DNA of 40,659 nucleotides, taken from positions 1 through 40,659 of the forward strand of contig JADZEA010000076.1 of assembly GCA_020850775.1 (NCBI GenBank), in the 5' to 3' direction. Both the position numbers and the translations under genes were made by a program. This document shows, piece by piece, positions 18,101 to 38,900 of this stretch. Within the stretch, counting starts at the first letter, position 1. Every line of letters starts with the position of its first letter. The notes beneath the pieces were generated by a model. That model saw nothing but the letters and a program-made list of their open reading frames with translations. It ran no database searches and was not told the DNA's origin. This DNA comes from a bacterium. Its GTDB lineage: Bacteria; CLD3.

Positions 18101-18600
18101 TCATTCGGGTAGGTTGCGAGTTCATTTTTCAGGTTTTGTGAGTGTGGGATTACGAGTTCCACGAAGTTAAATTCCCGTGTAAGTTGAGTTTGGATTTTTT
18201 CTTTAAGGGAATTTCGTAAGGTTTTATTTTTGCCTGAAAACTCAATGAGTTCATCGTAATAAAAATTTTCATTTTTTACGAAGTTCTTTTTGTCTTTTGA
18301 GTAAGAAAGGTAAATTTTGATTTTTGTGTTGTTAGAGTTAAAAAGTTCGGTTTTGTGGTCAAGGCTTTGTAAAAGGTAAATTCCAACACGAATTTTCAAG
18401 TAGTTTGGTTCAAGGTCGGCGTAGAGAGTTAGTAAGTCAGCTGAAGGGTTTTTGATAATTTCTTCTGTTTCAACGGCAAAATCAGCTTTTTTAAAATGGA
18501 TATTTTTGTAAGATTTTGGGTTCCCAAACTCAATTTTATTTTGAGCAAGCAGAAGAAACGGGAACAAAAGAAAAATAAGTTTCAATAAATTTTTAGCCAT
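12169..18600 (-). CDS. Giant secreted GH57-like glycosidase with PKD and starch-binding-like domains
   Basis: 2143 residues from ATG 18600, chosen because AAAGGG precedes it and it begins directly with a signal peptide (MAKNLLKLIFLLFPFLLLAQ); an upstream in-frame start would add 17 residues ahead of the signal. Domains by position: N-terminal beta region to about 195; GH57-like catalytic region about 200-640 (HGNQGL near 211, AWIPERVW near 329, TDWE near 427); beta region with DLDGAVEMII; CBM9/DOMON-like region about 960-1170; PKD about 1170-1245; binding domains A1 and B1 about 1250-1457; PKD about 1470-1550; A2, B2, A3, B3 about 1562-1978; PKD about 1985-2063; FnIII to the end. Likely acts on extracellular alpha-glucan. 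There is no T9SS sorting domain. GH57 is judged from motifs only and could be a related polysaccharide-active family. Confidence 0.75.
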   Translation of the reverse strand: MAKNLLKLIFLLFPFLLLAQNKIEFGNPKSYKNIHFKKADFAVETEEIIKNPSADLLTLYADLEPNYLKIRVGIYLLQSLDHKTELFNSNNTKIKIYLSYSKDKKNFVKNENFYYDELIEFSGKNKTLRNSLKEKIQTQLTREFNFVELVIPHSQNLKNELATYPNEIFNNETFPISYLVTTEIAGKTIDTLKGSNQISTQTGNCAFVLHGNQGLTYTDVFRGTDGGTTFPNSSGNGFDELLAISQNYSIPANYHLSGTLISAAEWHDPTFNDWLAQGGQQGWAEIVSSALGQHIMPFLPDNLNNKSVKTQHDLINFVYNYNPSIAWIPERVWLSGGTYPDAGISDTWLGDNWTQNGIEAVILDDYIHLAGADNHKIHWMNNGNGINLRVIPIDNTFTGNVNYNAGAAWNTILSTGENGIAVYGTDWEVLAEVSGQAVSSGVENFLWLNQQLSANSSWQGAWKLSSAISSGKFNGNGITLNNGTYDLIGGFNGYGGNNNAWYTDWAGTQSPSDFHNPGWNYGNVWWNTYNNLLSSASNSISEAGWLTFMTNIHETAWHEGLGGQTSGWIHNYSAHIKNTNVYAEAAKWAANWYTNSTAAYTSDIDLDGAVEMIIYNDRIFAVFEGTGGRLCWLFAKGTDYTYSLIGNDNAYWEGTTGDYNDANHVAGLSDVFVNGNANWINESYGWTVDNGSGSVVQISMFKDGMTKRIRLEENQPYLKVRYTTPGTTYIKSGFTPDLLSLTWNPQGIQRVFAPTSAYFGQRNTGSNATVACVVGSGGASHTAEFTSTLVKGDEISGNGTFDFLLYGGYAQPNGLTSPELDALASTVVNKPLVSNIDFFAQTGILILRFDDTMNFSQTSLANIGFDTNFDNVPDFSLANSTILNTGNSQIIRIQLDQTTAGNFKNADFNNVRLLAEANSFQNTLGNGNERYFFFDGYGVWKLENISKTIDGFFDANEWDNSTILVDDPNNDSFLGASNEIETIFMDWDSLYLYLGIDGQVASNLSWLLYLDTDPNGANGQTNLSTINVWDRNAVFNSASQMKVDFQFGSYAGSNGDFWKINSLTNATQVSSVFSRTFLTGTLTGSEIAIPWNALYELGEGIVKSGATIRLVASLATQTQLSSDSAPSNTTGTNLPTINNSVIFTVDANNDGFPDGNSTSLTADFSANPTSGNLPLTVNFLSLSTAGNNPIQSWNWDFDNNGTTDATGQNPSYTYTTQGLKSVKLTIFDGVSTVTETKNDFVNVTLAGIDQSVTVTFSLDLNASCTFTNTVSEVKATGTFSNWSTGSQAVSLSDPNNDKIWTGSYTFPAGTSENQQYKFVYTSNGTTTWEDQIANRNLTINDTNSTQTLSTVFFNDVYSNFTTQQVTVNFQVDLAVVQAPFTSVSVTGNFVNWNTSAVPLTLVNGTTYSGSYVFPACSNESYLYKFTYTDGTNVFWEDQIANRTLVLNDSLPTQNLATVTFNNLVLPPTPPNSDFTASVLSGFSPLTVNFTSTSTQGTNPITSYLWDFDSNGTTDDITSITSHTFTNVGTYAVKLTVSDGTLSDFETKNITVVSQNGILQPENVTFNVNLNAFCSETIDSVFVAGSFTNWALNPLKLSDTNNDKIYTGTHTFAVGDTLNQEFKFVYYANGSTNFVWENDVPNRNLTIDTLQTNQTLATVYFNNTEPTTVTVQNVNVTFSVDFSFVSGVVTNVYLTGDFTNWNPTAIPLVSGSGNVYSGVFAFPGCSVKTRNYKFTYSNGTETVWETIGNRNFTLDDTNTSQTLPTVTFNDVLSQSKNVTFSVDLTNYCLQTIDSVFVAGTFSGWNGTKIFDANNDKIFSGNYQILAGSTLNQEYKFFCFTDGSSVVNWEDQIGNRTLNLDFANSDTTLATVFFDNVVPTVTAQTTQVYFQVLVVADSIESVFVAGTFSGWSGIELTQVSANIFADTLVFAACEPKNVEFKFLHLKNGVFVWEDSISNRNLTLVENGSLQVLPLVAFNNLSVPLEANFQASVVSGEAPLNVTFTDFSVGFPNQVTSWFWDFQNDGTTDATTQNPVFSYTQAGTFSVKLVVSNGTESDSLLKTDYVTVSLSVLPPVSDLKIQKNGNAAVLNWSAVVGATNYKIYRSLVPITEVTGLVPIDETSNTNYTDTNAVSSGKFFYVVTWEN

Positions 18601-18625
18601 AAAAATGCCCTTTAAGTTAGGTTTT

Positions 18626-18656
18626 AGAAAGTAAATAAAAAGGGTTGCCAAGTCAA
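18626..18656 (-). promoter_or_regulatory. Putative promoter of the GH57-like gene
   Basis: On the minus strand TTGAC (TTG at 18656-18654) is followed after 20 bases by TACTTTCT (18633-18626), the same spacing as other promoters here though the -7 box is imperfect. It leaves a leader of about 25 bases. Confidence 0.35.
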
Positions 18657-18796: not shown

Positions 18797-20263
18797 ATGA
18801 AAAAGTTTTGTTTACTAACTTTATTTTTGGGTGCTTTTGCAAGTATTTCCTTAGCTTTACCAACTGTTGACGGAGATACTTCTGAGCCTGATTACGAAAT
18901 TATTGCCACTTACACGAGTGGAAACAATGGTTTTGGAAGTTCAAACAACATTCGTTCAATCAAAATTGCGAGAAACTCAGCAACTGATGATTTTTACATC
19001 GGCATTCCCTGCGATTTGGTGAGTAACGATAATGTTTTGCTTTTTATGGATGCTTCCGGTTACGATGGAAGAGACAAAGGTTTAGCTGTTGGACAAACAG
19101 GAGAAACTGGTGTTTTTGGCACAGGAGGTTTGGACGGCACGTTTATGGATTTTGAAGTGGATTACGCCTTTTCTTTTAACAAAGGTGGTTCAGGCACTGA
19201 TTTTTTCATGGACGCAATGCGTTACGGTGAAGGGACGCCTTTTATCAAAAGTTCGTTTTTTAACAACGGTTCAGGAAAGAGTTGCAACCAAAGTGGCACT
19301 CCTTCAACGATTCCAAGTTCAGGCATTACAGATTTTTCCGACGCAAACACAATGACAATCGCATACAACAACGGAGGTGGAATTGACCAGGGAATTGAGT
19401 TAATGCTGCACATTCCTTCTTCAGGTTCAACGGCTCTTCCGGGCGTTGTAAAAACTCACTACGCAAAATTTTTTGCAGTGATTGTCAGCGGTGGCGGATT
19501 TTTTTCTGACGAAATGCTTCCTCACCACAACCGTCAGTCAGGAAACCCCGGATACGATGTAAATTTTGCTTCAACAACTTTCAACAATGGTGCTGAAGGA
19601 GATTTTTTTACCGCTCCTGACGTTCCTTTGCCTGTAAACCTGAATTCTTTTAATGCTAAAAACAGCAACAACAAAATCGTTCTTGAATGGATTGCTGAAT
19701 CCGAAATCAACAACAAAGGTTTTATCGTTCAAAGGAAAACCAAAAACGAAACAAACTTTACTCAAATCGCTTCTTACTTAGATTCTCCGGAACTTCTTGG
19801 ACGAGGGAACTCTCCTTTTTCAAAAACTTATACTTTTGTTGACAGAGAGGATTTGATTTTGGGTGAAACTTATGAATACTTGCTTACTGACGTTGATTTT
19901 GTAGGAAACAGGATTGACCACAAAGATTTGATTGCAACAGTTCGCTACGAGCCAACAATTAATGAAAATGAAGTGAGAATTTCAAAATTTATTTTAAAAG
20001 GAAACTTCCCGAATCCTTTCAACCCAACAACAACAATTCAGTTTGAATCATTAGGCAAAACAGATTACTCACTTTCAATTTTTAACACTTCAGGTCAGCT
20101 TGTCAGAAATCTTGTTTCTGAAAAACCTGCCGAAATTGGAACTAATGAAATTGTTTGGGACGGAAAAGACGACAACGGTTCTTTGGTTTCTTCGGGAATT
20201 TATTTTTACCAGCTTAAAGGTGGAAATTTTTCCGAAACTAAAAAAATGATGCTTTTAAAATAG
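18797..20263 (+). CDS. Secreted protein with type IX sorting domain, unknown function
   Basis: 488 residues. A signal peptide (MKKFCLLTLFLGAFASISLA) is followed by a Gly/Ser/Asn/Phe-rich beta region at about 22-280 with no enzyme motif I recognise (YIGIPCDL, VLLFMDASGYDGRDKG). A FnIII-like segment spans about 280-385 (PLPVNLNSFNAK ... VLEWIAESEINNKGFIVQRK), and the C-terminal sorting domain about 400-488 (NFPNPFNPTTTIQF ... DDNGSLVSSGIYFYQLK ... ETKKMMLLK). This C-terminal plan is standard for T9SS cargo in Ignavibacteria-like bacteria. Divergent from the GH57-like gene across 196 bases. Surface location: confident; role unknown. Confidence 0.85.
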   Translation: MKKFCLLTLFLGAFASISLALPTVDGDTSEPDYEIIATYTSGNNGFGSSNNIRSIKIARNSATDDFYIGIPCDLVSNDNVLLFMDASGYDGRDKGLAVGQTGETGVFGTGGLDGTFMDFEVDYAFSFNKGGSGTDFFMDAMRYGEGTPFIKSSFFNNGSGKSCNQSGTPSTIPSSGITDFSDANTMTIAYNNGGGIDQGIELMLHIPSSGSTALPGVVKTHYAKFFAVIVSGGGFFSDEMLPHHNRQSGNPGYDVNFASTTFNNGAEGDFFTAPDVPLPVNLNSFNAKNSNNKIVLEWIAESEINNKGFIVQRKTKNETNFTQIASYLDSPELLGRGNSPFSKTYTFVDREDLILGETYEYLLTDVDFVGNRIDHKDLIATVRYEPTINENEVRISKFILKGNFPNPFNPTTTIQFESLGKTDYSLSIFNTSGQLVRNLVSEKPAEIGTNEIVWDGKDDNGSLVSSGIYFYQLKGGNFSETKKMMLLK

Positions 20264-20620: not shown

Positions 20621-21865
20621 ATGATTGTTAAGAATTTCAATAAACGTTTCCCGGATTACGAAAAAATTTTAGAAAATTTGGAAAGTGCAAACTTTCTTGT
20701 GAACTTCAAAAAAAATTCAATTTCTATCAGTTTGGATATTTTTACAGTTCTGACTTATGATTTACGAGGTTTTTTGATTTATGGAATTGCAGATGAAATT
20801 ACTTTTAAACGTGGTCTTGGAAACCGTTTCCTGAAAATTTACCGTGAAAATGCTAAAAAACAGAGATTTGATTTGACAGATTTTGAACGAAAAAGCCTGC
20901 TTAATTTTGCGAAACAAGTCAGCGAAACGTGTTTTTCCGGTAAAGCAAAAAATGTTAACCACGAAAATTACACGCAAGCAGAACTTGAAAACTTCATTCA
21001 AAAAATCAATTCTAAAAATTATGAAGACTACGAAGAGCTTGAGGAACTTTACAAAAAAAATTACAGTCCGGTTATGATTTTGCCGCCAGACCAGTACTTA
21101 GCTTTGGTTGTTCAGATGACTGTTGGTTGCTCGTACAACAAGTGCAGTTTTTGTTCGTTTTACAAAGACGTTGAATTCAAAATAAAACCAGTTCAAGAGG
21201 TAAAAAACCATATTTTTGGGTTAAAAAATTTTTTAGGCGAAGCTTTAAAATTAAGGAAATCAATTTTTCTTGGCGACGCAAACTCTTTGCTTGCTCCGAC
21301 AAAATACCTTGTTGAACTTTTAGATTTTTTACAAACGCAATTTGAGTTTGGGAGAGGTAATTTTTCAGGAGTTTATGCTTTTGTTGACAATTTTACGCAA
21401 AATTTCAAGACAAAAAATGACTATCAAAAACTCGCAGAACGAAATTTTAAACGTGCTTACATTGGTTTTGAAACAGGTTCACAAAATGTTTTAAGGCTTT
21501 TGAATAAACCTGCAACTCCGCAAGACGCAAGGGACGTTGTCAATCGTTTAAAGGAGAGTGGAATTTCTGTTGGTGTGATTTTAATGACTGGAGTTGGTGG
21601 CAAAAAATATTTTGATGAACACATTGAAAAAAGCGTTGAAGTGATTAATCAAATGAATTTAGACAGTTCGGACATTGTTTATTTTTCAGAATTTGTGAGT
21701 TACGGAATGCAAAATTATCTTGAGTTTTTACACAGGGAAGGAATAGAAGACAACGCAGAAACAGACTCAAAAATGCAGACAGAAGCAATTAAATCAAGGC
21801 TTTTTGAAAACTCACGCGATAAACCAAAACTTACAAAGTATGAAATTGAAGAGTTTATTTATTAA
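20621..21865 (+). CDS. Radical SAM protein
   Basis: 414 residues. An N-terminal region of about 150 residues without a recognised motif precedes a radical SAM core starting VVQMTVGCSYNKCSFCSFY near residue 163, whose three cysteines (C-x4-C-x2-C) would hold the 4Fe-4S cluster. Typical core features follow: FLGDANSLL, the YIGFETGSQNVLRLLNKP strand (beta-4/5, near 285) and GVILMTGVGG. This resembles the COG1032-type radical SAM proteins that share the GCsxNxCxFC motif; the reaction is unknown. The 3' end overlaps the next gene by 26 bases. Confidence 0.85.
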   Translation: MIVKNFNKRFPDYEKILENLESANFLVNFKKNSISISLDIFTVLTYDLRGFLIYGIADEITFKRGLGNRFLKIYRENAKKQRFDLTDFERKSLLNFAKQVSETCFSGKAKNVNHENYTQAELENFIQKINSKNYEDYEELEELYKKNYSPVMILPPDQYLALVVQMTVGCSYNKCSFCSFYKDVEFKIKPVQEVKNHIFGLKNFLGEALKLRKSIFLGDANSLLAPTKYLVELLDFLQTQFEFGRGNFSGVYAFVDNFTQNFKTKNDYQKLAERNFKRAYIGFETGSQNVLRLLNKPATPQDARDVVNRLKESGISVGVILMTGVGGKKYFDEHIEKSVEVINQMNLDSSDIVYFSEFVSYGMQNYLEFLHREGIEDNAETDSKMQTEAIKSRLFENSRDKPKLTKYEIEEFIY

Positions 21866-23219
21866 AACATTTTTTGCACTAATTTTTGGTTTTTTTAGCC
21901 AGGTTTTACTTGCACAGGAATTTTTTGTTACATCGTACAAGCCCGTTGATTTTTCTTTTAAAAACGAGTCTGTTACAGTAAGTTTTTCACAAAAAATTGA
22001 CCAGGTAACAATCAAAAATGAGAATTTTTTAGTCCTTGAAAACTCAAAAGAAGTGAAGGGTAGTTTTGTTTTTGATAAAAATCGGGAAACGGTAACTTTT
22101 CAACCGGAAGAAAACTTTAGTGAGGGTTCAAAAATTACTTGTATTTTGACTAACGGGATTAAATCACAAAGCAATCAAAATTTGCAATCAAAAATTTGGG
22201 AATTTGTCGTCAGAACACCACAAACTTTTGCGGAACCTGATTCTGAGCTTGTAATTTATTCAACAGACCTTGATTTTGATGGAAATCTTGACATTATTCT
22301 TGGCGATCCTTCTGTATTTTTTGGGAATATTTTAGTTTTTTGGGGGCTTGGAAAGGATAGTTTTTCAGTTCCCTTAAGGCTTTCTTTTCCTGATGAACCA
22401 TTCAAAATTTTTGCTGCCAACCTTGATAAAACACCTTTTGCAGAAATTATTGTTACAGGAAAAGAGTTTGGTAAAATCGCAATTTTCCAAAATAATTACG
22501 ATTTTTTTTCTGAGCCACAAGTGTTTAAAGGGCTTGAGTTTGGGATTGTTTATGCACAAGACCTTGAAAAAGACGGTGATTTTGACCTTGTTTTAACTTC
22601 TGCAGTTTCAAATTCAAACGTAAAAATCCTGCTAAATGATGGAAAAGGGAAGTTTTTGGCAAACGACCTTGAGGCTGAAAAAATCATTTCAGCTTACGCA
22701 GGAGATTTAAACGGTGATAAAATTCCTGACCTTGTCGGGATTGCGGAAGGGAATGAAAAATTTTTAGAACTAAGGCTTAGTAACCAACAAAATTCTTACA
22801 CGTCAAGCAAGTTGAGAATTGGAAATTTCACAAAAATAACTGTAAATGATTTTAACAAAGATGGTTTTGCGGATATTTTTTTGAGTGGTGAAACCCCAAA
22901 AGACTTTGTAATTCTGGAAAACTCGGGAAACGGAAACTTTAATTTTTCGGATTTGGAATTTTCGCAAATTCAAACCGGAGAATGGCAAACTAACGAAAAA
23001 AGCATTTTTAAAATTTTTGATTTTGGAAAAGATAATTATTTGCCAATTGTTGTCAACTTTACAAGTGAAAATTTGAAAGCTGAAATTTTTGATTTTGGTG
23101 GAAAGAAATTGCAAGAAATTGTAAAGAGTGGAAAAATTGGTGAAAGCATTGTTTTAGAAGAAATTAGAGAAACTCAGAGCAAGGTTTTTATGAAACTTGG
23201 CGGAGCAGTTTTTAAGTAG
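21840..23219 (+). CDS. Secreted FG-GAP/VCBS-repeat protein with N-terminal Ig-like domain
   Basis: 459 residues from ATG 21840, chosen because it begins directly with a signal peptide (MKLKSLFIKTFFALIFGFFS ... LLAQ); a TTG 36 bases upstream would put 12 extra residues before it. Residues about 30-125 look like an SbsA/Big_5-type Ig domain (VTVSFSQKIDQVTIKNENF). Then come repeats with calcium-loop-like signatures: DLDFDGNLDIILGD, DLEKDGDFDLVLTS, DLNGDKIPDLVGIA and DFNKDGFADIFLSG, typical of FG-GAP/VCBS beta-propellers. No T9SS sorting domain is seen. It overlaps the radical SAM gene by 26 bases, so translation is probably coupled, though the functional link is unclear. Confidence 0.8.
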   Translation: MKLKSLFIKTFFALIFGFFSQVLLAQEFFVTSYKPVDFSFKNESVTVSFSQKIDQVTIKNENFLVLENSKEVKGSFVFDKNRETVTFQPEENFSEGSKITCILTNGIKSQSNQNLQSKIWEFVVRTPQTFAEPDSELVIYSTDLDFDGNLDIILGDPSVFFGNILVFWGLGKDSFSVPLRLSFPDEPFKIFAANLDKTPFAEIIVTGKEFGKIAIFQNNYDFFSEPQVFKGLEFGIVYAQDLEKDGDFDLVLTSAVSNSNVKILLNDGKGKFLANDLEAEKIISAYAGDLNGDKIPDLVGIAEGNEKFLELRLSNQQNSYTSSKLRIGNFTKITVNDFNKDGFADIFLSGETPKDFVILENSGNGNFNFSDLEFSQIQTGEWQTNEKSIFKIFDFGKDNYLPIVVNFTSENLKAEIFDFGGKKLQEIVKSGKIGESIVLEEIRETQSKVFMKLGGAVFK

Positions 23220-23375: not shown

Positions 23376-24218
23376 TTGGAAACAGAAAATTTTACTTTTT
23401 CTTTCAGAAACGGGACTTACGATTTTTCTGAAAGAACTTTTTTGATGGGAATTCTAAACGTTACGCCGGATTCTTTTTCTGACGGTGGTAAGTTTTTTGA
23501 CAAACAAAAAGCCATTGAACAAGCATTAAAAATGGAGAGTGAAGGTGCTGATTTTATTGATATTGGAGCAGAATCAACTCGTCCAAATTCTCAGGCTGTC
23601 AGTGTGGAAACTGAACTTGAAAGACTTGTTCCGGTTGTTAGCGAACTTCTAAAAAAGGTGAAAATTCCAATTTCAATTGATACGACGAAAGCTAAAGTTG
23701 CAGAAGAAATGTTAAAACTTGGAGTTGAAGCAATTAACGATATTTCGGGATTTGTTTTTGAGCCAAAGATTGCGGAAATTGTTGCAAAATTTAATGCTTT
23801 TGCTTTTTTGATGCACACAAAAGGAAAACCTCAGGAAATGCAAAAAAATGTTAGTTACGACAATTTGATTGGAGAAATTCAGACTTATCTTGAAAGCTCA
23901 ATTTCTTTTGCGAAAAGCAAAGGAATCAGGGGAATTGCAATTGACCCCGGAATAGGGTTTGGGAAGTCTTTTGAAGGAAATTTTGAAATTCTTGCAAGGC
24001 TTGGAGAGTTTAAAAAATTTGGTAAACCAATTCTTGTTGGTCTTTCACGAAAAGGATTTCTTGGGAATGAAGTCGGAGAAAGGTTAGAAGGAAGCCTTTC
24101 CGGAGCAGTTGCTTCTGTTTTGAATGGTGCAAATATTTTGCGTGTTCACGATGTTAAGGAAACTAAAAAAGCAATTTTTGTTGCTGATAAAATTAAAAAA
24201 TACCAAAGATGGAACTAA
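23376..24218 (+). CDS. folP: Dihydropteroate synthase
   Basis: 280 residues; condenses 6-hydroxymethyl-dihydropterin diphosphate with p-aminobenzoate in folate synthesis. Family motifs: MGILNVTPDSFSDGG (24-38), DIGAESTRPN, ISIDTTKAKVAEEML, INDISGF and DPGIGFGKS (near 190), then GLSRKGFLG. Start is TTG 23376; there is no upstream in-frame ATG, and this start gives the usual short lead before the first motif. No good Shine-Dalgarno is visible. It overlaps cdaA by ten bases, a linkage seen in many Bacteroidota. Confidence 0.96.
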   Translation: METENFTFSFRNGTYDFSERTFLMGILNVTPDSFSDGGKFFDKQKAIEQALKMESEGADFIDIGAESTRPNSQAVSVETELERLVPVVSELLKKVKIPISIDTTKAKVAEEMLKLGVEAINDISGFVFEPKIAEIVAKFNAFAFLMHTKGKPQEMQKNVSYDNLIGEIQTYLESSISFAKSKGIRGIAIDPGIGFGKSFEGNFEILARLGEFKKFGKPILVGLSRKGFLGNEVGERLEGSLSGAVASVLNGANILRVHDVKETKKAIFVADKIKKYQRWN

Positions 24219-25006
24219 TTAAATTAGATTTTTTGACGATTACTCTGTTTGATGTCTTAGATATTTTTTTAGTGTCATTTATTTTTTACAAGCTCTTTAT
24301 TATTTTACGCGGAACACGAGCCTATCAAATGCTTCTTGGTTTTGTTGTGATTTTGGCGTTTTCTTTTCTTGCTGAAGCGTTTGAAATGAAAGGAATTTTA
24401 TGGCTAATTGAAAATATCAGAGCTGTTTGGGTTGTTGCTTTTGTGATTCTTTTCCAATCAGAATTACGAAGATTTTTAATTTATCTTGGTCAAAGCAATT
24501 TTGTGAATGTATTTTTTAAGCATCAAAACATTGGTTTTATTGACCAGCTCACAGAAGGAGTAAAAGTGCTTTCTCAAACAAAAACAGGTGCTTTGATTGT
24601 TCTTGAACGGGAAACAGGAATGCGTGCAGTTATTGAAACAGGCTTGATTTTAGGGGCAGAAATTTCAAAGGAATTGTTGCTTTCAATTTTTAACAAAAAT
24701 TCTCCGCTTCACGACGGAGCAGTTGTAATTAGAAATTATTTGATTGAAGCAGCAGGTTGTTTTTTGCCAATCACGCAAAATGATACAATTCCTTTGAGTT
24801 GGGGAACGAGGCACAGAGCAGCGATTGGAGTTACGGAAGAATCAGATGCAATTTCACTCGTTGTTTCAGAAGAAACAGGAGAAATCTCAATTGCAAAAAA
24901 CGGGAACTTAGAAAAAAATTTAACCATTGAAGAAATTAGAACTAAATTAAAAGAAGAATTATTAAAACCTGATAAAAGTATCAAAATTTTAGGTGTTGAA
25001 AAATGA
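24209..25006 (+). CDS. cdaA: Diadenylate cyclase CdaA (c-di-AMP synthase)
   Basis: 265 residues. An N-terminal membrane region (about 10-85, three helices) is followed by the DisA_N/DAC catalytic domain with HDGAVVI (DGA near 168) and RHRAAIG (near 200), the two motifs that bind ATP and metal. The length and plan match CdaA (TIGR00159) rather than DisA. It makes c-di-AMP, which controls osmolyte and potassium balance and wall integrity. No CdaR gene is adjacent, as would be usual in Firmicutes. It overlaps folP by ten bases and porU by four (ATGA), so it is translationally coupled on both sides. Confidence 0.96.
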   Translation: MELIKLDFLTITLFDVLDIFLVSFIFYKLFIILRGTRAYQMLLGFVVILAFSFLAEAFEMKGILWLIENIRAVWVVAFVILFQSELRRFLIYLGQSNFVNVFFKHQNIGFIDQLTEGVKVLSQTKTGALIVLERETGMRAVIETGLILGAEISKELLLSIFNKNSPLHDGAVVIRNYLIEAAGCFLPITQNDTIPLSWGTRHRAAIGVTEESDAISLVVSEETGEISIAKNGNLEKNLTIEEIRTKLKEELLKPDKSIKILGVEK

Positions 25007-28000
25007 TAAAAAAAGACTTTTTGCTTATTGGAATTTTTGGAATTTCAAGTTTGATTGTTTCAAATGCAGTTTTGGGAAACGATGCCAAAAAACAAGAAAA
25101 AACAAAATCTAATGTTGCAGTTCAAACTGAGAAACAAGAAAAAACTTTCAAAATTATTGAGCATTCAAAAAATAAAATCAAAATTAAAGTTACAAACCCT
25201 GAACCTGAATTTGAAAATTTTGAGTTTGACGGGAAAACTTTTGTCAAGTTTAAAGATGCCAGAAGTGGGTTTTTACAAAAAACAAATTATCCTGAAATTC
25301 CAAATTTTTCTTACACTCTAAACATTCCAAGCAAAAATCTTGCTGTCAGAGTTTTAGATTCAAAGTCACGGAAAATTGCAATAAAAAATCCGATAAAACC
25401 TGTTTTTGAAGATGTTGCAAATTATGGAACAGGGAGCGAAGCAAAACAAAAACCACTCTTGGATTATGCAAAAACAACTGTTTATCCTTCACAAATTGCA
25501 GAAATTAACAGGGAAGGTAATTTTCGTGGAAATGAGTTGGTAACTCTTAAAATTTCACCTTACGTTTATTTTCCTTCGCAAAATTCAATTACTTTTTACT
25601 CTGAAATGACCCTTGAAGTAACTTTTGAAGAAGATTTAAATTCAACAAAAGGTGTTGTTAATCCAGACCCAAGTATTGCAGAACTTGAGCTTCTTTCCAA
25701 AACGGCAGAAAATTACAGGGAAGCACAAAGCCTGAACTTTTTTAAAGGTAAGAAAAATGGTTCCCAGCTTTCAGAAACAATCACAAATTATGACACTGAA
25801 GACAAAAAAATCAGAATGATTGTTGAAGAAGATGGAATTTACAGAATTACTTTGAGCGACATTGACAAACTTGGAGTTAGCCTTTTTGGTTTGGATCCAC
25901 GTTACTTAAAAATTTATAAAAATAACACACAAATACCTGTTTATTTTAGTGGTGAAGCAGATGGAGTTTTTGATGAAACTGATTACTTTGATTTTTGGGG
26001 CGAGAAAAGAGTAAAAACTTATCTTGACAAAGTAAAGACTCCTGATGTTTACCAGGACCCTTACTCAACTGAAAATTGTTATTACATTAGTTGGAAAAAA
26101 GACGATGGTTTTGGTTTGAGAATGGTCGATGAAAATGTAGCTCCAACGATTGTTGACAACCTTTCAATTGCAAATGACCTTTACACGGCAAAGTTTTTTG
26201 ACGACAAAATTCATTTGGAAGAAGACAGACTTTTTAGCCGTTTAGGAGACGTTTCTTACAAAGAAGTGCTTGATATTACACAAAGAGACCATTGGTTTTG
26301 GACTGAAGCAAGAGCTTTTAGTACAAAAGCAATTTCAATAAATTTACCGGGACTTTACGCTGATGGAAGTGCGGAAGCAAAGTTTACAATTGCACTTCAT
26401 GGAAGAACAAGTGGAAGCCATCACGTAATTGCATCAGTGAACAATCAGCAGGTTTACAACACAAGTTGGGTAGAACAAAAATTAAAAATGCTTTATCCGA
26501 TAGGTTCAACTTCCGGAACAAATATTGGTACCGGAGGAATTGCACAATCGCTTTTGCTTGAAGGAATTAACACCGTAAACCTAAGTTTACCCGGCGATAC
26601 ACAATCAGGAGAAAATGATGTTGTGCTTTTAAACTGGATAGAAATTCAGTACAAAAGAAAATTAGAGGCTTACGAAAACTCTTTAACTTTCAGAAAACCA
26701 GAGTCTAATATTTACGGTGAAACAGATGAGAGATTTGGAGTTTGGGAATTTAATGTAAAAGGTTTTACTAACCCAGATATCGTCCTCTACAAAAAAGGAA
26801 TTAGCCGTTTAAATGGTGGAATTATTGGAATTATCACGGATGAGTTTACAAAGGAAAAAACTTTTCGTATAAAAATCCAGGATGAAATTCTTAGCAACGA
26901 GGTGGAATACATCGCAACAACAGAAGAAAAAATTAAAAAGCCAAAAAGGTTTGAAGCTAATTTACCATCTGACATTAAAGGAATTACAGAACAAGTTGAT
27001 TACTTAGTTATTTCGCATCCGGAATTTATTGGAAGCAAGTTAGACGAGTTTGTTGAATTACACGAAAACAATCCAAAATTACCATTAAGCACAAAAGTAA
27101 TTGATGTAATGGATATTTATGATGAATTTTCAGCAGGGCATCGTTCTCCTGAAGCAATTAAATCATTTTTGCGTTTTGTTTATGAAAATTGGACAAAACC
27201 GGCACCAATTTATGTTTTATTGGTTGGTGATAATTCCTGGAACGGGAAATTACCCGAAGAAGGTGGTGGAAACTTTATTCCTTCACAACTTTTACACACA
27301 AAAGAATGGGGACTTGCAGTAAGTGATTCCTGGTATGGATTTCTTGATGATGATTTTTTACCGGAGTTTTTAATCGGCAGATTCACTGTAAATGATAGAT
27401 TTGAACTTCAGGCAGTTGTTGACAAATCAATTGAACACATAACAAACCCTGATTTTGATGAGACTTTTAATAAAATTTTATTCATTTCCGGTGGAGCAGG
27501 AATTTTTTCAGACCAAAATAACGTCTTAATAAGAGACCATTTACCTTCACAATTTGATGTAATAAGATTAAACACAAGTGCAGAGACAACAGAAAATTCT
27601 TCAACTAACCCGGATCTTTTGCTAAACAATCAAAATTTAGCGGCAGAAATTGAAAAAGATATTGACCTTGGCGGTACTTCTGATTTAATAGATATTTTTG
27701 ATGGTGGAATTTCAATCATTAATTTTATGGGACACGGCGGCGGAGCAGTTTGGGCTGACCAAGGGCTTTTTAGACTTCCTGACGTTGAAAGAACAAGTAA
27801 CAAAGGAAAATACCCTTTTGTTACAAGTATGACTTGTTTTGCAGGAGCTTTTGACGAACCTTCACGTTTAAGTTTGTCCGAAAAAATGATGATTGAAAAA
27901 GACAAAGGTGCAATTGGTGTTTGGGCTTCTTCAGGTCTTGGCTGGACTTGGAATGACTTTTTCATTTCTCAGGAAATTTGGCGACCAATTTTACTTGAGA

Positions 28001-30432
28001 ACCAAACTTTTGGTCAGGCAATTTGGCAAGCAAAACAAGATTACCTGAAAAAATACAGTCCTGATGGTGTTGCAAACCCTTCTGACCAAGAATTTTCAAT
28101 GATTACACAGTACAATCTTTTAGGAGACCCGGCACTCTCTCTGCACGTTGCAAACGAAAAATTTGTTGAAAATTCTCTTGAACTTTCTGACGATAATTTA
28201 ACTTACGGGCAAGATGTTGTTGTCAGTGGTGAAGCTGATTTTGAAATCAGAAGGTTGAAAATTGCTGTTACAAATTCTTACGGAAGAACAATCAAGGAAT
28301 TTTTGTTTACTCCAAACTCAAATAATTTTAGTGAAACAATAACAATTCCAGACAAAGGACCAATTGCAGAATCAAACGGAAATGGAACTTACTCATTAAA
28401 ATTAACTCAAAACACTGAACTGCTTTTGAATACTACTTCTGGTTTTATCAAAATTTATGCTGATAATGATGACATTAGCGATATTAAAATTGCCAATGCT
28501 TCAATTCCTTTTTTAGTTGATGGTCCTTCAATTATTTCAACAGCTCACTTCCCTTTAAACCCAACCGAAAGAGATTCCGTCTATTTCCATATTTTTATTG
28601 AGCCAAACGGAAAAGTGATTACAGAAATAAAATGTATCGGGCGTTACGATACTCCAAATAATTTTAACGCAAGCGACAGGTTTTCTTACATTACAGTTAA
28701 AGACACATTAAACACGAAACATTTTTATACTGCAAATCCTTTTGTTGACGGAAGAGGCGGAACTCTGATTCACTACTATTTTCAAATTACAACCGATGAA
28801 GGAAAAATTTACAAAACAAACTCTCAAAATTACTTTCTTGGTGAAAAATTAGATTTTAACACAAACAAGGAAAAATTTTGGCTAAGTGGTGAAGATGAGG
28901 TAAAATTCAACTTTTCAGTTTCAAACAACACGCCAGTTGCACAAAACAACATTCCTTTAAAGTTTACTTTTTTGAGAACTGATAGTTTGGCGTTTGCAAT
29001 GAATTACACAATTAATTCTATTCCATCTTACTCAAGTTTTGATTTTAATTCGCAACTTTTAGTTGAACAATTTGATTTTATCCCGGGAAAATATTCTGTT
29101 AAAGCAGAAATTGACCCATTAAATGTTTTTGGTGAAGCAATCAGGCAAAATAATGCAAGGATTTTTGAACTGAAACTAAATCATTTTAACGTAACTCCGG
29201 CACTCGGAACAACTTTGAATAAAACAACTCATTCAGAAGTTGCTGTTGATGACCAAATTTTTATAGACATTGAACCGCAAAAATTTACTGAAACAGGTGT
29301 TTTAATAATTTCTGAAAAACTGATGCCAAACACACGCACTCAAAATTTATTTGTTCCGTACACCTATGAAGTTAATAACTACCCTTTAAAACGTGAAGCT
29401 GCAAAACTAAGAGATGAATTTTTAGCTTACAAAATTGATTTTTCAAAATCTGAAGCGGTTTTAGAAGAAAAAATAAAAATAAAATTTGCACTTAATCCAT
29501 TGCTTCAAGACACGATTGGGACGACACAAATTGCTTTTTATGATTTACCAAACAAAAGATGGCTTCTGCTTCCAACAACACAAAACGGCGATTTCTTTGA
29601 AACTGAAACTGCTAACGAAGGTCTTTACACGTTAATGAACAGCACTGACGATGCAAACAAAGGCACTAAGTTCTTTCCTTCCGTTGAACTGAATGCTTCG
29701 GGAAAAACAATTACTGATGGAAGTTTTGTTTCATCTAATGCTAAGGTTTCATTGATTTTACAAGATGAAAGCGGAATTAATTTGAATACAATTTGGGTTA
29801 CTTTGAACGGTGATACTCTTGATTCTAATGAACTTGTTTTACCAGACTCAACTTCTAATCCAAACATAATTTCAATACCTTTACGAGTTGCACTAAACAC
29901 GATTGTTTCCGATTACGTGGTTAAGTACCAAGTTTCTGATTACGCCGGAAATCTTTTAACAGACAAACAAGTAACTTTCAGAACTTTGGCAAACACAAAC
30001 CTGACAGTTTATGGAAACTTCCCGAATCCTTTTGGTGATGCAGTTGCTAAAAGCATTCCTGATAAAAAATTAGGTGAAAAAGGAACTATTTTTGCATTTT
30101 CAGTTGAAGGAATTGACGATGCGGCGGATAAACCCTGGGAAATCAAGATTGAAATTTATTCTGTTGCAGGAAGATTGGTAAAGAAAATGTTTAACCGTTC
30201 CGGAAACAGGGAAGGAATTGATTACACAAAAGAATTTGAAACTGACAGGACACCAAACTCAACTTCTGCCCGCGGACACGAAATTTATTGGGATGGGCTT
30301 GATGACAAAGGCAATGAAGTTGCAAACGGAGTTTACTTTTACATAATTACAATAAAAGGAAAAGACACAAATCAAGAAACTATCAGTGAAAAATACAAAG
30401 GTAAGTTGGCAAAAATAAGAACTGAACAGTAA
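25003..30432 (+). CDS. porU: PorU-like C25 peptidase, type IX secretion sortase
   Basis: 1809 residues with an N-terminal signal or membrane anchor (FLLIGIFGISSLIVSNAVLG). The gingipain-type C25 region lies about 660-1060, with candidate catalytic His in NFMGHGGGAVW (near 910) and Cys in TSMTCFAGAFDEP (near 943), preceded by PIYVLLVGDNSW. Long beta-rich C-terminal regions follow, ending in a sorting-domain-like tail (NFPNPFGDAV, EIKIEIYSVAGRLVKKM, WDGLDDKGNEVANGVYFY). PorU cleaves sorting signals from T9SS cargo and attaches cargo to the surface. The family size is usually about 1150-1300, so this one is long. Immediate neighbour of porV, as expected. Confidence 0.88.
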   Translation: MIKKDFLLIGIFGISSLIVSNAVLGNDAKKQEKTKSNVAVQTEKQEKTFKIIEHSKNKIKIKVTNPEPEFENFEFDGKTFVKFKDARSGFLQKTNYPEIPNFSYTLNIPSKNLAVRVLDSKSRKIAIKNPIKPVFEDVANYGTGSEAKQKPLLDYAKTTVYPSQIAEINREGNFRGNELVTLKISPYVYFPSQNSITFYSEMTLEVTFEEDLNSTKGVVNPDPSIAELELLSKTAENYREAQSLNFFKGKKNGSQLSETITNYDTEDKKIRMIVEEDGIYRITLSDIDKLGVSLFGLDPRYLKIYKNNTQIPVYFSGEADGVFDETDYFDFWGEKRVKTYLDKVKTPDVYQDPYSTENCYYISWKKDDGFGLRMVDENVAPTIVDNLSIANDLYTAKFFDDKIHLEEDRLFSRLGDVSYKEVLDITQRDHWFWTEARAFSTKAISINLPGLYADGSAEAKFTIALHGRTSGSHHVIASVNNQQVYNTSWVEQKLKMLYPIGSTSGTNIGTGGIAQSLLLEGINTVNLSLPGDTQSGENDVVLLNWIEIQYKRKLEAYENSLTFRKPESNIYGETDERFGVWEFNVKGFTNPDIVLYKKGISRLNGGIIGIITDEFTKEKTFRIKIQDEILSNEVEYIATTEEKIKKPKRFEANLPSDIKGITEQVDYLVISHPEFIGSKLDEFVELHENNPKLPLSTKVIDVMDIYDEFSAGHRSPEAIKSFLRFVYENWTKPAPIYVLLVGDNSWNGKLPEEGGGNFIPSQLLHTKEWGLAVSDSWYGFLDDDFLPEFLIGRFTVNDRFELQAVVDKSIEHITNPDFDETFNKILFISGGAGIFSDQNNVLIRDHLPSQFDVIRLNTSAETTENSSTNPDLLLNNQNLAAEIEKDIDLGGTSDLIDIFDGGISIINFMGHGGGAVWADQGLFRLPDVERTSNKGKYPFVTSMTCFAGAFDEPSRLSLSEKMMIEKDKGAIGVWASSGLGWTWNDFFISQEIWRPILLENQTFGQAIWQAKQDYLKKYSPDGVANPSDQEFSMITQYNLLGDPALSLHVANEKFVENSLELSDDNLTYGQDVVVSGEADFEIRRLKIAVTNSYGRTIKEFLFTPNSNNFSETITIPDKGPIAESNGNGTYSLKLTQNTELLLNTTSGFIKIYADNDDISDIKIANASIPFLVDGPSIISTAHFPLNPTERDSVYFHIFIEPNGKVITEIKCIGRYDTPNNFNASDRFSYITVKDTLNTKHFYTANPFVDGRGGTLIHYYFQITTDEGKIYKTNSQNYFLGEKLDFNTNKEKFWLSGEDEVKFNFSVSNNTPVAQNNIPLKFTFLRTDSLAFAMNYTINSIPSYSSFDFNSQLLVEQFDFIPGKYSVKAEIDPLNVFGEAIRQNNARIFELKLNHFNVTPALGTTLNKTTHSEVAVDDQIFIDIEPQKFTETGVLIISEKLMPNTRTQNLFVPYTYEVNNYPLKREAAKLRDEFLAYKIDFSKSEAVLEEKIKIKFALNPLLQDTIGTTQIAFYDLPNKRWLLLPTTQNGDFFETETANEGLYTLMNSTDDANKGTKFFPSVELNASGKTITDGSFVSSNAKVSLILQDESGINLNTIWVTLNGDTLDSNELVLPDSTSNPNIISIPLRVALNTIVSDYVVKYQVSDYAGNLLTDKQVTFRTLANTNLTVYGNFPNPFGDAVAKSIPDKKLGEKGTIFAFSVEGIDDAADKPWEIKIEIYSVAGRLVKKMFNRSGNREGIDYTKEFETDRTPNSTSARGHEIYWDGLDDKGNEVANGVYFYIITIKGKDTNQETISEKYKGKLAKIRTEQ

Positions 30433-30461
30433 TCAAAAATTTTAAAAGGGTTTAAAAAATA

Positions 30462-31526
30462 ATGTTAAGAAAAATTATTTTAGTTGCAGTTGTTTCATTG
30501 TTTGTTGGGAATCTTTTGGCAAAAGAAAACACAACTGCTTTTCTTGAAAATGGAGTTGGTGCAAAAGCACTTGGAATGGGAAATTCTTACACAGGTTCGT
30601 GGTTGGACGGCAACTCATTTTATTGGAATCCTGCCGGAATTTCTTTTGCAAAACGCAGAGAAGTTGCCGGAATGTACGCAACGAGTTTTTTGGAAACTTC
30701 TTACAATCATTTTGGTTACACTCACAAACTTCCAAAAGACGCTGCTTTTGGAATTAACTGGATTCGCTACAGTATTGATAAAATCCCTGTTTACAATACT
30801 TTAACAAATGAAGCAACAAGGGACCCAAACAATCTTTACGGTGATTTTATTGAAGGAAAAAACTTTGATAACATCCAACAAGCGTATTATTTTACTTTTG
30901 GAAAAAAACACAAACTTAATTTTGACCTTGGCTGGCTTTACTACAATTTACCAATTGAATTTGGTTATGGTTTTAACGTGAAGGTTATCCGAATGGCAAC
31001 AAGTGGCTTGAGTGGAATTGGAATTTACGATGCAGGACAAAAAAGAGATGGCTCAAGTTTACCTGCAATTGAGTACGACGACCTTTCTGTAACTGGAATT
31101 GGAATGGATTTAGGTTTTCTTTTTAAAGCAAGTATGAGCGAAATTGCAAGTAAGGAAGGTTTAGGCGATTTAGGAGTTGGTTTTCAAATTCAAGATTTGA
31201 GTGAAGAGGAATTAAAATGGAGTGCAAACACAAAAGACAAAGTTGAAAGAGCTTACCTGACGGGAGTTTATTACGTTCAAGATTTTGATTGGATAATTGA
31301 CGAGTACACTTTTGCTTACAATTATGATTCAAGAAATGAAGGGTCTCATCATTTTGGCGGTGAAATTAGACTCAAAAAAATGTTCGCAATCAGGCTTGGT
31401 TCAAACGGTGGAGACGCAACTTATGGTTTAGGTTTTATTTTTAAAGGGTTTACTTTAGATTGGGCTTACTGGAATCACAGTAAACTTGAAGGACCACACA
31501 GATTTAATCTTTCATTCCAATTTTAA
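30462..31526 (+). CDS. porV: PorV/PorQ-like outer-membrane protein of type IX secretion
   Basis: 354 residues. Signal peptide MLRKIILVAVVSLFVGNLLA, then AFLENGVGAKALGMGNSYTG ... FYWNPAGISF, the FadL-like barrel start typical of the PorV/PorQ family, alternating beta strands through the length and a final aromatic residue (NLSFQF) suited to BAM insertion. PorV carries cargo from the SprA translocon to the PorU sortase. AAGGG lies before ATG. It follows porU by 29 bases and precedes a lipoprotein gene by 11. Confidence 0.85.
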   Translation: MLRKIILVAVVSLFVGNLLAKENTTAFLENGVGAKALGMGNSYTGSWLDGNSFYWNPAGISFAKRREVAGMYATSFLETSYNHFGYTHKLPKDAAFGINWIRYSIDKIPVYNTLTNEATRDPNNLYGDFIEGKNFDNIQQAYYFTFGKKHKLNFDLGWLYYNLPIEFGYGFNVKVIRMATSGLSGIGIYDAGQKRDGSSLPAIEYDDLSVTGIGMDLGFLFKASMSEIASKEGLGDLGVGFQIQDLSEEELKWSANTKDKVERAYLTGVYYVQDFDWIIDEYTFAYNYDSRNEGSHHFGGEIRLKKMFAIRLGSNGGDATYGLGFIFKGFTLDWAYWNHSKLEGPHRFNLSFQF

Positions 31527-31537
31527 CGGATAAAGTT

Positions 31538-32347
31538 ATGATTTATTTAATTTTAGTTTTATGCTTTTCATTTTTTACTGCTTGTGGAACTGATGCCGAT
31601 AAAGACACAATTCCACCTCAAAAACCATTAATTGTTGATAAATCTGCCGATACTTCGGGAGTTGAAACAGGAATTGACGCTGTTGCTGACGGAGATTGGA
31701 TTCGTGTTGAGTGGTTTCAAAATCAGGAAGAAGACGTTAAAGGCTACACAGTTTACCGTTCTAAAAAATCAGGCGGGTTTACTCAATTAACAAATATTAG
31801 TGCCGAAGAGATTGAAAACATTGATAGCTTGATTATTAACAAAGGGCTTCCAAATCAGGAAATTAAAAATATTGTTTTCTTTAATGATTCTTTGACAATT
31901 GATACAACTGAAACTTTAGAAACAGGTGTTATTTATAAATATTACGTTAGAGCATTTGATAAAACAGGTAATGTTTCCGCTTCTTCGGATACAATCAGTT
32001 ATCAGTTAGAGGAAAAGCCGGTTGGTGTAAGCCCGTTAGGAAGTTATGACAACACTCAACCTGTTTTTAGATGGTTTTGGAACCCAAATTATTTTTCAAG
32101 TTATGTTTTGAAAATAACGGATGAATTTGGAAATTACATTTGGATTTTTGAAGAAGTTCCCGGTACTTTTGGACAAGAGTATTTAGTTGAATTCAATAAA
32201 GACGGGAAAGCAAAAATTAATGAATTAGAAACAGGAAAACGCTACATTTGGCGAGTTGATGGAGTTGGAGTTGTTAATCTAAAAAACGGAAAAGTGTTTT
32301 CCGGCGCTGAAAGCAATTGGAAACGATTTACCATTGTTGGTGAATAG
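31538..32347 (+). CDS. Lipoprotein with fibronectin type III-like domains
   Basis: 269 residues. A short lipoprotein signal ends in FFTAC (Cys 16), so the mature protein should be lipid-anchored. Residues about 50-150 resemble FnIII (WIRVEWFQNQEEDVKGYTVYRSKKSGGF ... KYYVRAFDKTGNVSASSDTI, quoted in parts: EDVKGYTVYRSK, YYVRAFDKTGN), and a second beta domain spans about 165-269 (FRWFWNPNYFSSYVLKITDE). Last gene of the folP-cdaA-porU-porV run; location suggests a surface partner of the T9SS apparatus, which is inference. A terminator follows 15 bases later. Confidence 0.8.
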   Translation: MIYLILVLCFSFFTACGTDADKDTIPPQKPLIVDKSADTSGVETGIDAVADGDWIRVEWFQNQEEDVKGYTVYRSKKSGGFTQLTNISAEEIENIDSLIINKGLPNQEIKNIVFFNDSLTIDTTETLETGVIYKYYVRAFDKTGNVSASSDTISYQLEEKPVGVSPLGSYDNTQPVFRWFWNPNYFSSYVLKITDEFGNYIWIFEEVPGTFGQEYLVEFNKDGKAKINELETGKRYIWRVDGVGVVNLKNGKVFSGAESNWKRFTIVGE

Positions 32348-35922: not shown

Positions 35923-38900
35923 ATGAAAATTTTTACTGCTTTTTTATTTTTGCTGTTGCCGTTACTCGCTTCGGCAAAAGAATTTTACTACTACAAAAAC
36001 CAAAAAATTTTTATTCACGAATCCAATAAAATTCTTGTTGAACTCAAAGAATCCAATAAAAATTTTATTGAAAATTTAATCTCAACTTCACCTTTTTTGC
36101 AGGATTTTAATCAGGAAACTGTTTTTTCAAAAACTCAGGACAACCGTTTTAAAACTCTCTGCATTCTTGAATTTAAAGAAGGCAGCTCCGAAACAACAAA
36201 ACAGGATTTTGTAAATTTTCTGAAAAATCAACAGGAAGTTTACTCTGTTTTTTCAGGCTATCAAAATAAAAACGAAGGAATGTTCGTTTTTGGTGAGTTT
36301 TTAATTCAGTTCAAACCTTTTGTTTCAAGAAATCAAGTCAATAATTTCTTACAAAACAATAATTTAACTTTGGTTGACGATTCCGAGCCGTTGCCAAATT
36401 ATTTTGTTGTAAAAATCCCGCAAAACACGGAAGCAAACTTTTTTGACCTTGTAAACTCAGTCAATGCCTCTGAACTTGTGAACTTTTCTGAACCAAACTT
36501 CATTTTACAAGATTTGCTGGACAGCGACCCGCTTTTTCCAACTCAGTGGGGAATGCACAACACAGGACAGTTTAATGGAATTGTTGACGCAGACGTTGAC
36601 GCTCTTGAAGTCTGGGAAAACGTAACAACAGGCGACCCAAACATCGTTATCGCAGTTTTTGACACAGGAATTGACGCAACTCATCCCGATTTGGCTGGAA
36701 ACGTTGTTACAGGTTTTAACACAATTAACAACACAACAAACCCAACTTACGCTCCCGAAAACGAAGCTCACGGAACTTGCACTTCCGGAATTGCCGCTGC
36801 TGTCGGCGATAACAACGAAGGAATTCACGGCACTGCCTCAACTTGTAAAATTATGCAAATCAAAATTTTCCCTTTTGTAGTCTCGCAAACTGTAACAGGA
36901 ATTAATTGGTCCTGGCAAAATGGTGCAGACGTAATGAGTAATTCCTGGGGAGGTTCAAGTCCTGTTACTTCAATTGAAAGTGCTTTTCAACAAGCAAAAA
37001 CACAAGGAAGAGAAGGAAAAGGCTGCGTGATTTTAGCTTCAAGCGGAAACAACGACAATCCGGACCCACACTATCCCTCAGCTTACACAAGCACGATTTC
37101 AATCGGTTCAACCTCAATGTGTGAGGAAAGAAAAAGCCCTGTAAGTTGTGACGGAGAAAATTTTTGGGGAGCAAGTTACGGAGACCAGCTAAACTTCGTG
37201 GTTCCCGGCGTAACAATCCAGACAACTGACATCGTTGGAGTCGAAGGTTACTCAACCGGAAACTACTCGCCTGATTTTGGCGGAACTTCTTCCGCTTGTC
37301 CGCTTGCTGCCGGAATCGCCGCTTTAGTTGTTTCAGTTGACACGATGCTGACTTCCGACGAAGTTCAGACAATCCTTGAAACAACTTGCGAAAAGGTCGG
37401 AAACTACACTTACAACCAACAAAAAACTAACGGAACCTGGGATTTTGAAATGGGTTACGGAAGGGCAAACGCTTACGAAGCTGTTGCAAAAGCCTGCAAA
37501 CCAAAAAACTTTGAACTGATTGACCCAATCAATGCTTCAACTTACGTGATTGGAACAATTATGAATTTTAACTGGGAAAAATCTGCTTTTGCAAACAAAC
37601 TTGATACTTTGCGTTACGAATTTCAAATTTCACCAAACACAAATTTTTCAACAATTTCCTTTACTGAAACACTTACAGACACAGTTTTTCAGTGGCAGGC
37701 TCTTCTTTCCCCGCAAGATTATTTTTGGCGTGTGATTGCAAAAAGCCTGAAAAATGGTTCGCAAGTCGTTTCTACAGGAGCAAATTCAATAACTCCTTAC
37801 TTTACTTTCCAACTAATCCAACCAACAGGACCTTACCTGATTTACAATTCCTTCTCGGTGAACGACCAAAACGAAGACAACGACGGACTCGCCGATTTTT
37901 ACGAAACAGTAAACCTGAACGTGCTTTTTGAAAACGTCGGAATCCAAAACACAATCAACACAACTGCAACTTTAACTGAAAACAGCCCTTACGTTACGGT
38001 GGTAAACGGAACAGCAAACTTACCACCTGTAACTTTTGGAACCATTCTGAACACGCCGGGAATTTTTACAATTTCAATTAACGGGAACGTTCCCGACAAG
38101 GAAAAAGTAAAAATGACTCTTTCAGTAACAGACGGAACAAACACCTGGACAAGTTATTTTTACGTCGTGCTGCACTCACCGGTTTTTGTTTACGATTCTT
38201 TCAGTCTGGTTGAAACAACAGGAAACGGAGACACTTTTTTACAGCCAAACGAAACGGGAAACCTTACCGTTTTGCTAAAAAATATTGGTTCTGCAAACGC
38301 TCAAAACGTAAACCTTGTCGTTACAAGTCTTGGATTTTCTTTAACAATCCAAAACCAAAATGCAACGATTGGAACGATTGGAGCAAACCCTTCAGTTTCA
38401 GCAAGTTCGCTCATTCCCGTTACTGCAACTCAAAATGCAAACTACGGCGAAACAGTTCCAATTGGAATCGTTCTGACGATTGGCAACAACTTTTCGCAAA
38501 CACTTGAAGGAACGGCAGAAATCGGTAACAGGAGCTACTTGCTTGATATTTTTAATGATAACTCAAACGAGTGGCAGTTTACAAACACTTTTACAGGCTT
38601 AAAATGGGCAATTGATTCAACTGCTTCCCAAATCGGAACCCAAACTGCCTACAAAAGTTTTCCTTTTAGTCTGAACTACAACAACGGAACAAATTTTATC
38701 AGTGGCACAGTTGCAAATTCAGGAGAAGCAATTTCGCCAGTTTTAGACATCTCAACTCACGTAAATCCCGTTTTAAGATTTTGGAGCCTGCACGACGTTG
38801 AAGGAAACAACTCAAAAGACCAAAGATGGGTGAAAATCAGCAACGACGGTTTTGCAACAATTCTTGACTCCGTTCAACTCAGCAACTTGGACCCGCAACA

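Follow-up and report, generated by a model that had tools for sequence, protein, structure and literature searches.

Two described settings of the diadenylate cyclase gene cdaA come closest to the one considered here. Firmicutes carry it in the cdaA-cdaR-glmM operon, and in Bacteroidota it follows folP. On the side of protein secretion, the closest described systems are the PorU-PorV pair and PorU itself as part of the T9SS attachment complex: a C25 peptidase of about 1140-1370 amino acids with catalytic His and Cys residues, a C25 propeptide and a CTD-like end. NCBIfam also defines the families PorU2 and PorV2 (NF052324 and NF052325), PorU2 being a second, long kind of PorU-like protein. An earlier survey limited T9SS to Bacteroidetes (PMC4793230).

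How might c-di-AMP and T9SS be connected? To our knowledge, little is understood of how c-di-AMP signalling works in Gram-negative bacteria that have a T9SS, and we know of no genetic basis for the link between c-di-AMP and gingipains in P. gingivalis. In that organism, deletion of cdaR or pde alters LPS, lowers cell-bound gingipain activity and raises the activity in the medium (PMC9259658).

Here we report a run of genes in which cdaA is followed by relatives of porU and porV. The locus lies in the window, by which we mean the whole 40,659-nucleotide stretch of DNA analysed, from a bacterium of GTDB lineage CLD3 (genome G000). The unit and its landmarks are as follows.

23376-24218, + strand: folP, dihydropteroate synthase, TTG start (TIGR01496, 292.6 bits; PF00809, E 1e-74)
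24209-24218, + strand: folP/cdaA overlap, 10 bases (folP stop 24218, cdaA start 24209)
24209-25006, + strand: cdaA, membrane diadenylate cyclase (TIGR00159, 250.3 bits; PF02457, E 6e-43; PF19293)
25003-25006, + strand: cdaA/porU overlap ATGA, 4 bases (cdaA stop 25006, porU start 25003)
25003-30432, + strand: long PorU-family gene of class A, 1809 amino acids, signal-peptide-like start (NF033707, PF01364, PF08126, tree)
27001-28143, + strand: peptidase C25 domain of the PorU-like protein (nearest solved structure PorU 6za2)
29674-30420, + strand: C-terminal region, T9SS CTD-like (aligned with the canonical PorU C-terminal end)
30462-31526, + strand: PorV-family outer-membrane barrel gene (NF033709, fold model)
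31538-32347, + strand: tandem-FnIII lipoprotein gene (invariant lipobox Cys, fold model)

The original prediction had placed folP, cdaA, porU, porV and an FnIII lipoprotein gene on one strand, with overlaps of ten and four bases at the first two junctions, and had read the set as one transcript. The coordinates are confirmed on the + strand at 23376-32347, and both overlap counts are correct on the stop and start positions. Behind porU, the gaps are 29 bases to porV and 11 bases from porV to the lipoprotein gene. A sequence scan found no terminator-like site at any junction from folP to the lipoprotein gene. Promoter-like sites showed no excess (26 versus 26.9 in shuffles), and a Bacteroidota-type promoter pattern, which occurs 5 times in the window against 3.8 expected, is absent from the + strand junctions of the unit. 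The five genes thus combine a common strand, short gaps and junctions free of terminators, as genes of an operon do, and a single transcript is probable. The unit is bounded upstream by a gene for an FG-GAP protein, 156 bases from folP, and downstream by a convergent aminotransferase gene.

The assignments of folP and cdaA are secure, as both products exceed the curated cut-offs of their families (162.6 bits for TIGR01496 and 188.8 bits for TIGR00159). CdaA has the two parts expected of it: N-terminal membrane segments and a DAC domain with its DGA and RHR motifs. The motifs HDGA (at about 24710) and RHR (24809-24817) are invariant or almost so in the CdaA alignment. The enzyme is the same as in Firmicutes and in Bacteroidota; as in Firmicutes it sits within an envelope-related operon, and as in Bacteroidota folP lies upstream. 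Unlike the Firmicutes operon, the window unit contains neither cdaR nor glmM, and unlike both it has outer-membrane secretion genes as the downstream partners of cdaA.

The third gene is not what it was first taken to be. The original prediction joined cdaA to the T9SS sortase gene itself; the window gene is instead a divergent PorU-family paralogue, and a better PorU is encoded elsewhere in the same genome. Against the PorU family profile NF033707 the window protein scores 284 bits in hmmscan and 247 in the genome search, short of the cut-off of 420. A full-length canonical PorU at contig C196 (15611-18988, locus L131) scores 704 bits, which rules out the window gene as the canonical copy. 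The two are 27% identical over 489 residues. C196 also holds a PorV-like gene next to its PorU, giving this genome two PorU-PorV pairs; the sister genus (G001) likewise has a canonical PorU beside a PorV-like gene in addition to its cdaA-linked one.

Membership of the window protein in the PorU superfamily is nonetheless clear. It matches the C25 peptidase family PF01364 (E 5e-80) and the propeptide family PF08126, retains the catalytic His911 (GHGGG, 27733-27735) and Cys945 (SMTCF, 27835-27837), and ends in a CTD-like region. The solved structure nearest to its C25 domain is P. gingivalis PorU (6za2, E 3e-40), ahead of the gingipains. C25 domains were cut out by profile coordinates. A tree built from 44 PorU-family proteins groups the canonical PorUs together (SH-aLRT 93) and places every cdaA-linked protein in a separate clade (SH-aLRT 99), which we name class A; it also takes in one protein each from KSB1 and Calditrichales and a near-linked one from Fidelibacterota. 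The catalytic His and Cys of class A are invariant in the protein alignment. The window protein therefore shares with PorU of the attachment complex the peptidase, its catalytic residues, the propeptide and the tail, and with the T9SS PorU-PorV pair an adjacent PorV-family barrel and an SprA in the same genome. It differs in its length and its clade, and the window pair differs in lying below both equivalog cut-offs, behind folP-cdaA and ahead of an FnIII lipoprotein gene. Like PorU2, class A is a long second PorU-like family, but the window matches to PorU2 and PorV2 are weak (200.9 and 57.3 bits, far under the cut-offs of 450 and 325). In Bacteroidota, the long PorU-like genes belong to a different clade from class A, and none was found behind cdaA.

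The neighbour of porU was identified through its fold. Its sequence gave no match among solved structures, and it falls short of the cut-offs for both NF033709, the PorV/PorQ family (71.7 bits against 90), and NF033710 (23.9 against 250). An AlphaFold2 model (pLDDT 84.6) found T9SS PorV chains as the best folds (8gl6_F and 6h3i_F, TM about 0.65), with FadL ranking below them; the model thus predicts the FadL-like barrel of the PorV type. The lipoprotein carries its lipobox cysteine at position 16 (31583-31585), invariant in 22 aligned sequences, and its model (pLDDT 87.4) matches folds of FnIII pairs, that is, a tandem FnIII protein.

Is the arrangement a peculiarity of one genome? The neighbourhood survey that the original prediction had proposed found the cdaA-porU link in four phyla, and an arrangement private to this genome is ruled out. 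Across the nine genomes of the window's phylum, class A PorU follows cdaA wherever the contig extends far enough. One contig stops inside porU (G001) and one just behind cdaA (G003); in both genomes the matching part of porU stands first on a different contig and is followed there by porV and the lipoprotein gene, and the link is read across the contig ends. Among 100 Fidelibacterota genomes, 87 have cdaA, 60 have class A PorU and 58 have both. In 48 of these, the start of the C25 domain lies 1.5-2.5 kb downstream of cdaA in the same orientation, roughly as far as the N-terminal part of PorU is long; three of the other ten have the genes on the same contig, and of the remaining seven, three have them at contig edges. 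All 20 Fidelibacterota loci that we read show folP-cdaA-porU, with porV next where the contig extends, and most also have the lipoprotein gene and an SLBB gene. A KSB1-like phylum has the link in 9 of 30 loci, and Calditrichota have it in 8 of the 26 loci with enough downstream sequence. Bacteroidota and Ignavibacteriota loci that were read keep folP-cdaA or cdaA, with no class A PorU behind it.

Protein identity between the window and family f2 or the other phyla is 44-50% for FolP and CdaA, 25-27% for PorU, 22-32% for PorV and 26-31% for the lipoprotein. With identities this low, the gene order must be old, and its recurrence in four phyla is not a matter of chance. The PorU tree favours a single ancient origin of the block, followed by losses. 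The CdaA tree, whose deep branches are poorly resolved, requires about seven changes of the linked state. Transfer of the block is the less favoured alternative. In some Fidelibacterota (L066/L175 and L065) the strand of cdaA carries a PorU-family gene at a greater distance downstream, which may represent a halfway stage towards losing the link.

Relatives show a longer version of the gene order, tilS-hpt-ftsH-folP-cdaA-porU-porV-lipoprotein-SLBB. Family f2 and the other phyla thus extend a housekeeping order, tilS-hpt-ftsH-folP, by the cdaA-to-SLBB genes. In the window tilS-hpt-ftsH is missing upstream of folP; the window's family has FG-GAP and radical SAM genes there, and comparison of these flanks indicates that its five-gene block is one cut loose from the tilS-hpt-ftsH operon and kept together. 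The genes in the place of tilS-hpt-ftsH are the radical SAM gene at 20621-21865 and the FG-GAP gene at 21804-23219. At the other end, a small SLBB gene of the polysaccharide-export type follows the lipoprotein gene at L054:16263-16772, at L079:10386-10901 and in Fidelibacterota loci; in the window's phylum none was observed at that place.

The spacing of the genes varies more than their order. The window's overlaps fit the proposal that cdaA and porU are translationally coupled, but that part of the original prediction does not carry over to all relatives: in the sister genus 40 bases separate folP from cdaA and 27 bases cdaA from porU, while cdaA-porU gaps reach 165 bases in f2 genomes. Most Fidelibacterota have overlaps or gaps of less than 30 bases. 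Judged from these junction sequences, the conserved feature is the close spacing, the overlap itself being variable. The gaps of 142-165 bases in some f2 genomes could offer room for a promoter.

What does class A PorU do? The SprA translocon scores above cut-off in all nine genomes of the window's phylum, and many proteins there have PorU-tail-like C-terminal domains. In seven sister genomes (G002-G008), the cdaA-linked class A protein is the sole C25 peptidase above cut-off. With SprA also present, class A is therefore the best sortase candidate in these seven; if a PorU-type sortase acts on T9SS cargo in them, the searches suggest that class A is that sortase. Of the arguments on function this is the strongest, though an indirect one. 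Class A is then of interest as a PorU subfamily that provides the only such C25 peptidase in seven SprA-bearing genomes outside Bacteroidetes (cf. PMC4793230). The window's own genome presents another picture, its class A protein being one of six C25 matches. Since a canonical PorU lies beside a PorV-like gene in this genome and in the sister genus, class A may not be the principal sortase of these two. Canonical PorU is also present in linked genomes of other phyla.

We favour reading the locus as an old envelope operon of deep FCB phyla with a sortase function, to which we give a probability of about two in three. Under this reading, the housekeeping run tilS-hpt-ftsH-folP-cdaA would bear a surface-attachment module at its 3' end, consisting of the class A cysteine peptidase, the PorV-family barrel and the FnIII outer-membrane lipoprotein, joined in other phyla by the SLBB protein. 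The PorU-PorV pair would process T9SS CTD cargo and anchor it on the cell surface. Expressed from a transcript shared by all five genes, the amount of attachment machinery would be linked to the growth and envelope state in which the c-di-AMP synthase is made. The gene pairing suggests, in other words, that cdaA and the attachment genes are run together. Counting against this reading are the canonical PorU of G000 and G001, the class A score below the PorU cut-off, the variable junctions, and the lack of the link in every cdaA locus read from Bacteroidota, the phylum in which T9SS has been studied.

What has kept them together is less certain. A porU-porV-lipoprotein module functionally unconnected to folate or c-di-AMP could have been inserted, in a single event, after a housekeeping operon with steady expression and been retained for that expression. 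Such hitch-hiking does not conflict with the operon reading, and it is the chief competitor of a signalling role; we consider it a serious possibility, at somewhat less than even odds. Relatives do have tilS-hpt-ftsH-folP as a housekeeping order in its own right, porU-porV-lipoprotein-SLBB stands alone in Calditrichales L169 and farther along the contig in L175, and the link is missing from many KSB1-like and Calditrichota genomes. Yet its retention in 48 of 58 Fidelibacterota and the whole of the window's phylum, even after separation from tilS-hpt-ftsH, exceeds what simple drift would lead one to expect. Alternatively, c-di-AMP made by CdaA would control cargo anchoring through LPS or the state of the cell wall; the need to coordinate production of enzyme and target would then account for the operon, and attachment would track a turgor or wall signal, as the original prediction had suggested for secretion capacity. 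Persistence of the link through deep divergence in four phyla is in keeping with such control. So is the lack of the usual neighbour of cdaA: all nine genomes of the window's phylum have CdaA, and they yielded no convincing YbbR/CdaR, one marginal match in G007 aside. The arrangement also fits, by analogy, a connection of the kind seen in P. gingivalis, where cdaR and pde mutants with changed LPS move gingipain activity from the cell to the medium (PMC9259658). On the other hand, no Rfam c-di-AMP riboswitch was found within the window and domain profile searches showed no c-di-AMP effector domain in the linked proteins, and many relatives have folP-cdaA with no porU behind it. We hold regulatory coupling of this sort to be unlikely.

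Class A PorU-PorV might also be dedicated to one cargo or to envelope polysaccharide work, leaving canonical PorU as the general sortase. The canonical copies in G000, G001 and linked genomes of other phyla speak for such a division of labour, as does the SLBB protein encoded next to the module in other phyla. We doubt it: G002-G008 have no other C25 peptidase above cut-off and yet carry SprA and CTD-like proteins, and the structure nearest to class A is PorU rather than a gingipain, with a PorV fold next door. The boldest proposal is quite improbable in our estimate: that the amount of anchored T9SS cargo is set directly by the level of CdaA or by its product, in a conserved operon of deep FCB phyla where a hitherto unrecognised ancestral PorU-PorV-lipoprotein module takes CdaR's place beside cdaA.

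Each part of this locus belongs to a known family or is a divergent relative of one; what is new is the conserved joining of the parts, which is apparently undescribed. We found no account of it in the literature open without subscription, including work on PorU2, on T9SS in Marinimicrobia, and on diadenylate cyclase with folP or in its genomic context. That at least four phyla retain the pairing, at low protein identity, argues independently that the two may go together, and the pairing singles out specific candidate partner proteins for the link between c-di-AMP and T9SS.

Elsewhere in the window, two proteins (18797-20263 and 35923-40452), one of them a subtilisin-like peptidase, have T9SS-type C-terminal domains with the motif NFPNPFNP or NYPNPFNP, and both are therefore likely cargo. 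On the - strand, 12169-18651 encodes a secreted protein of 2160 amino acids in which PKD-like and repeated carbohydrate-binding-like segments can be made out by eye.
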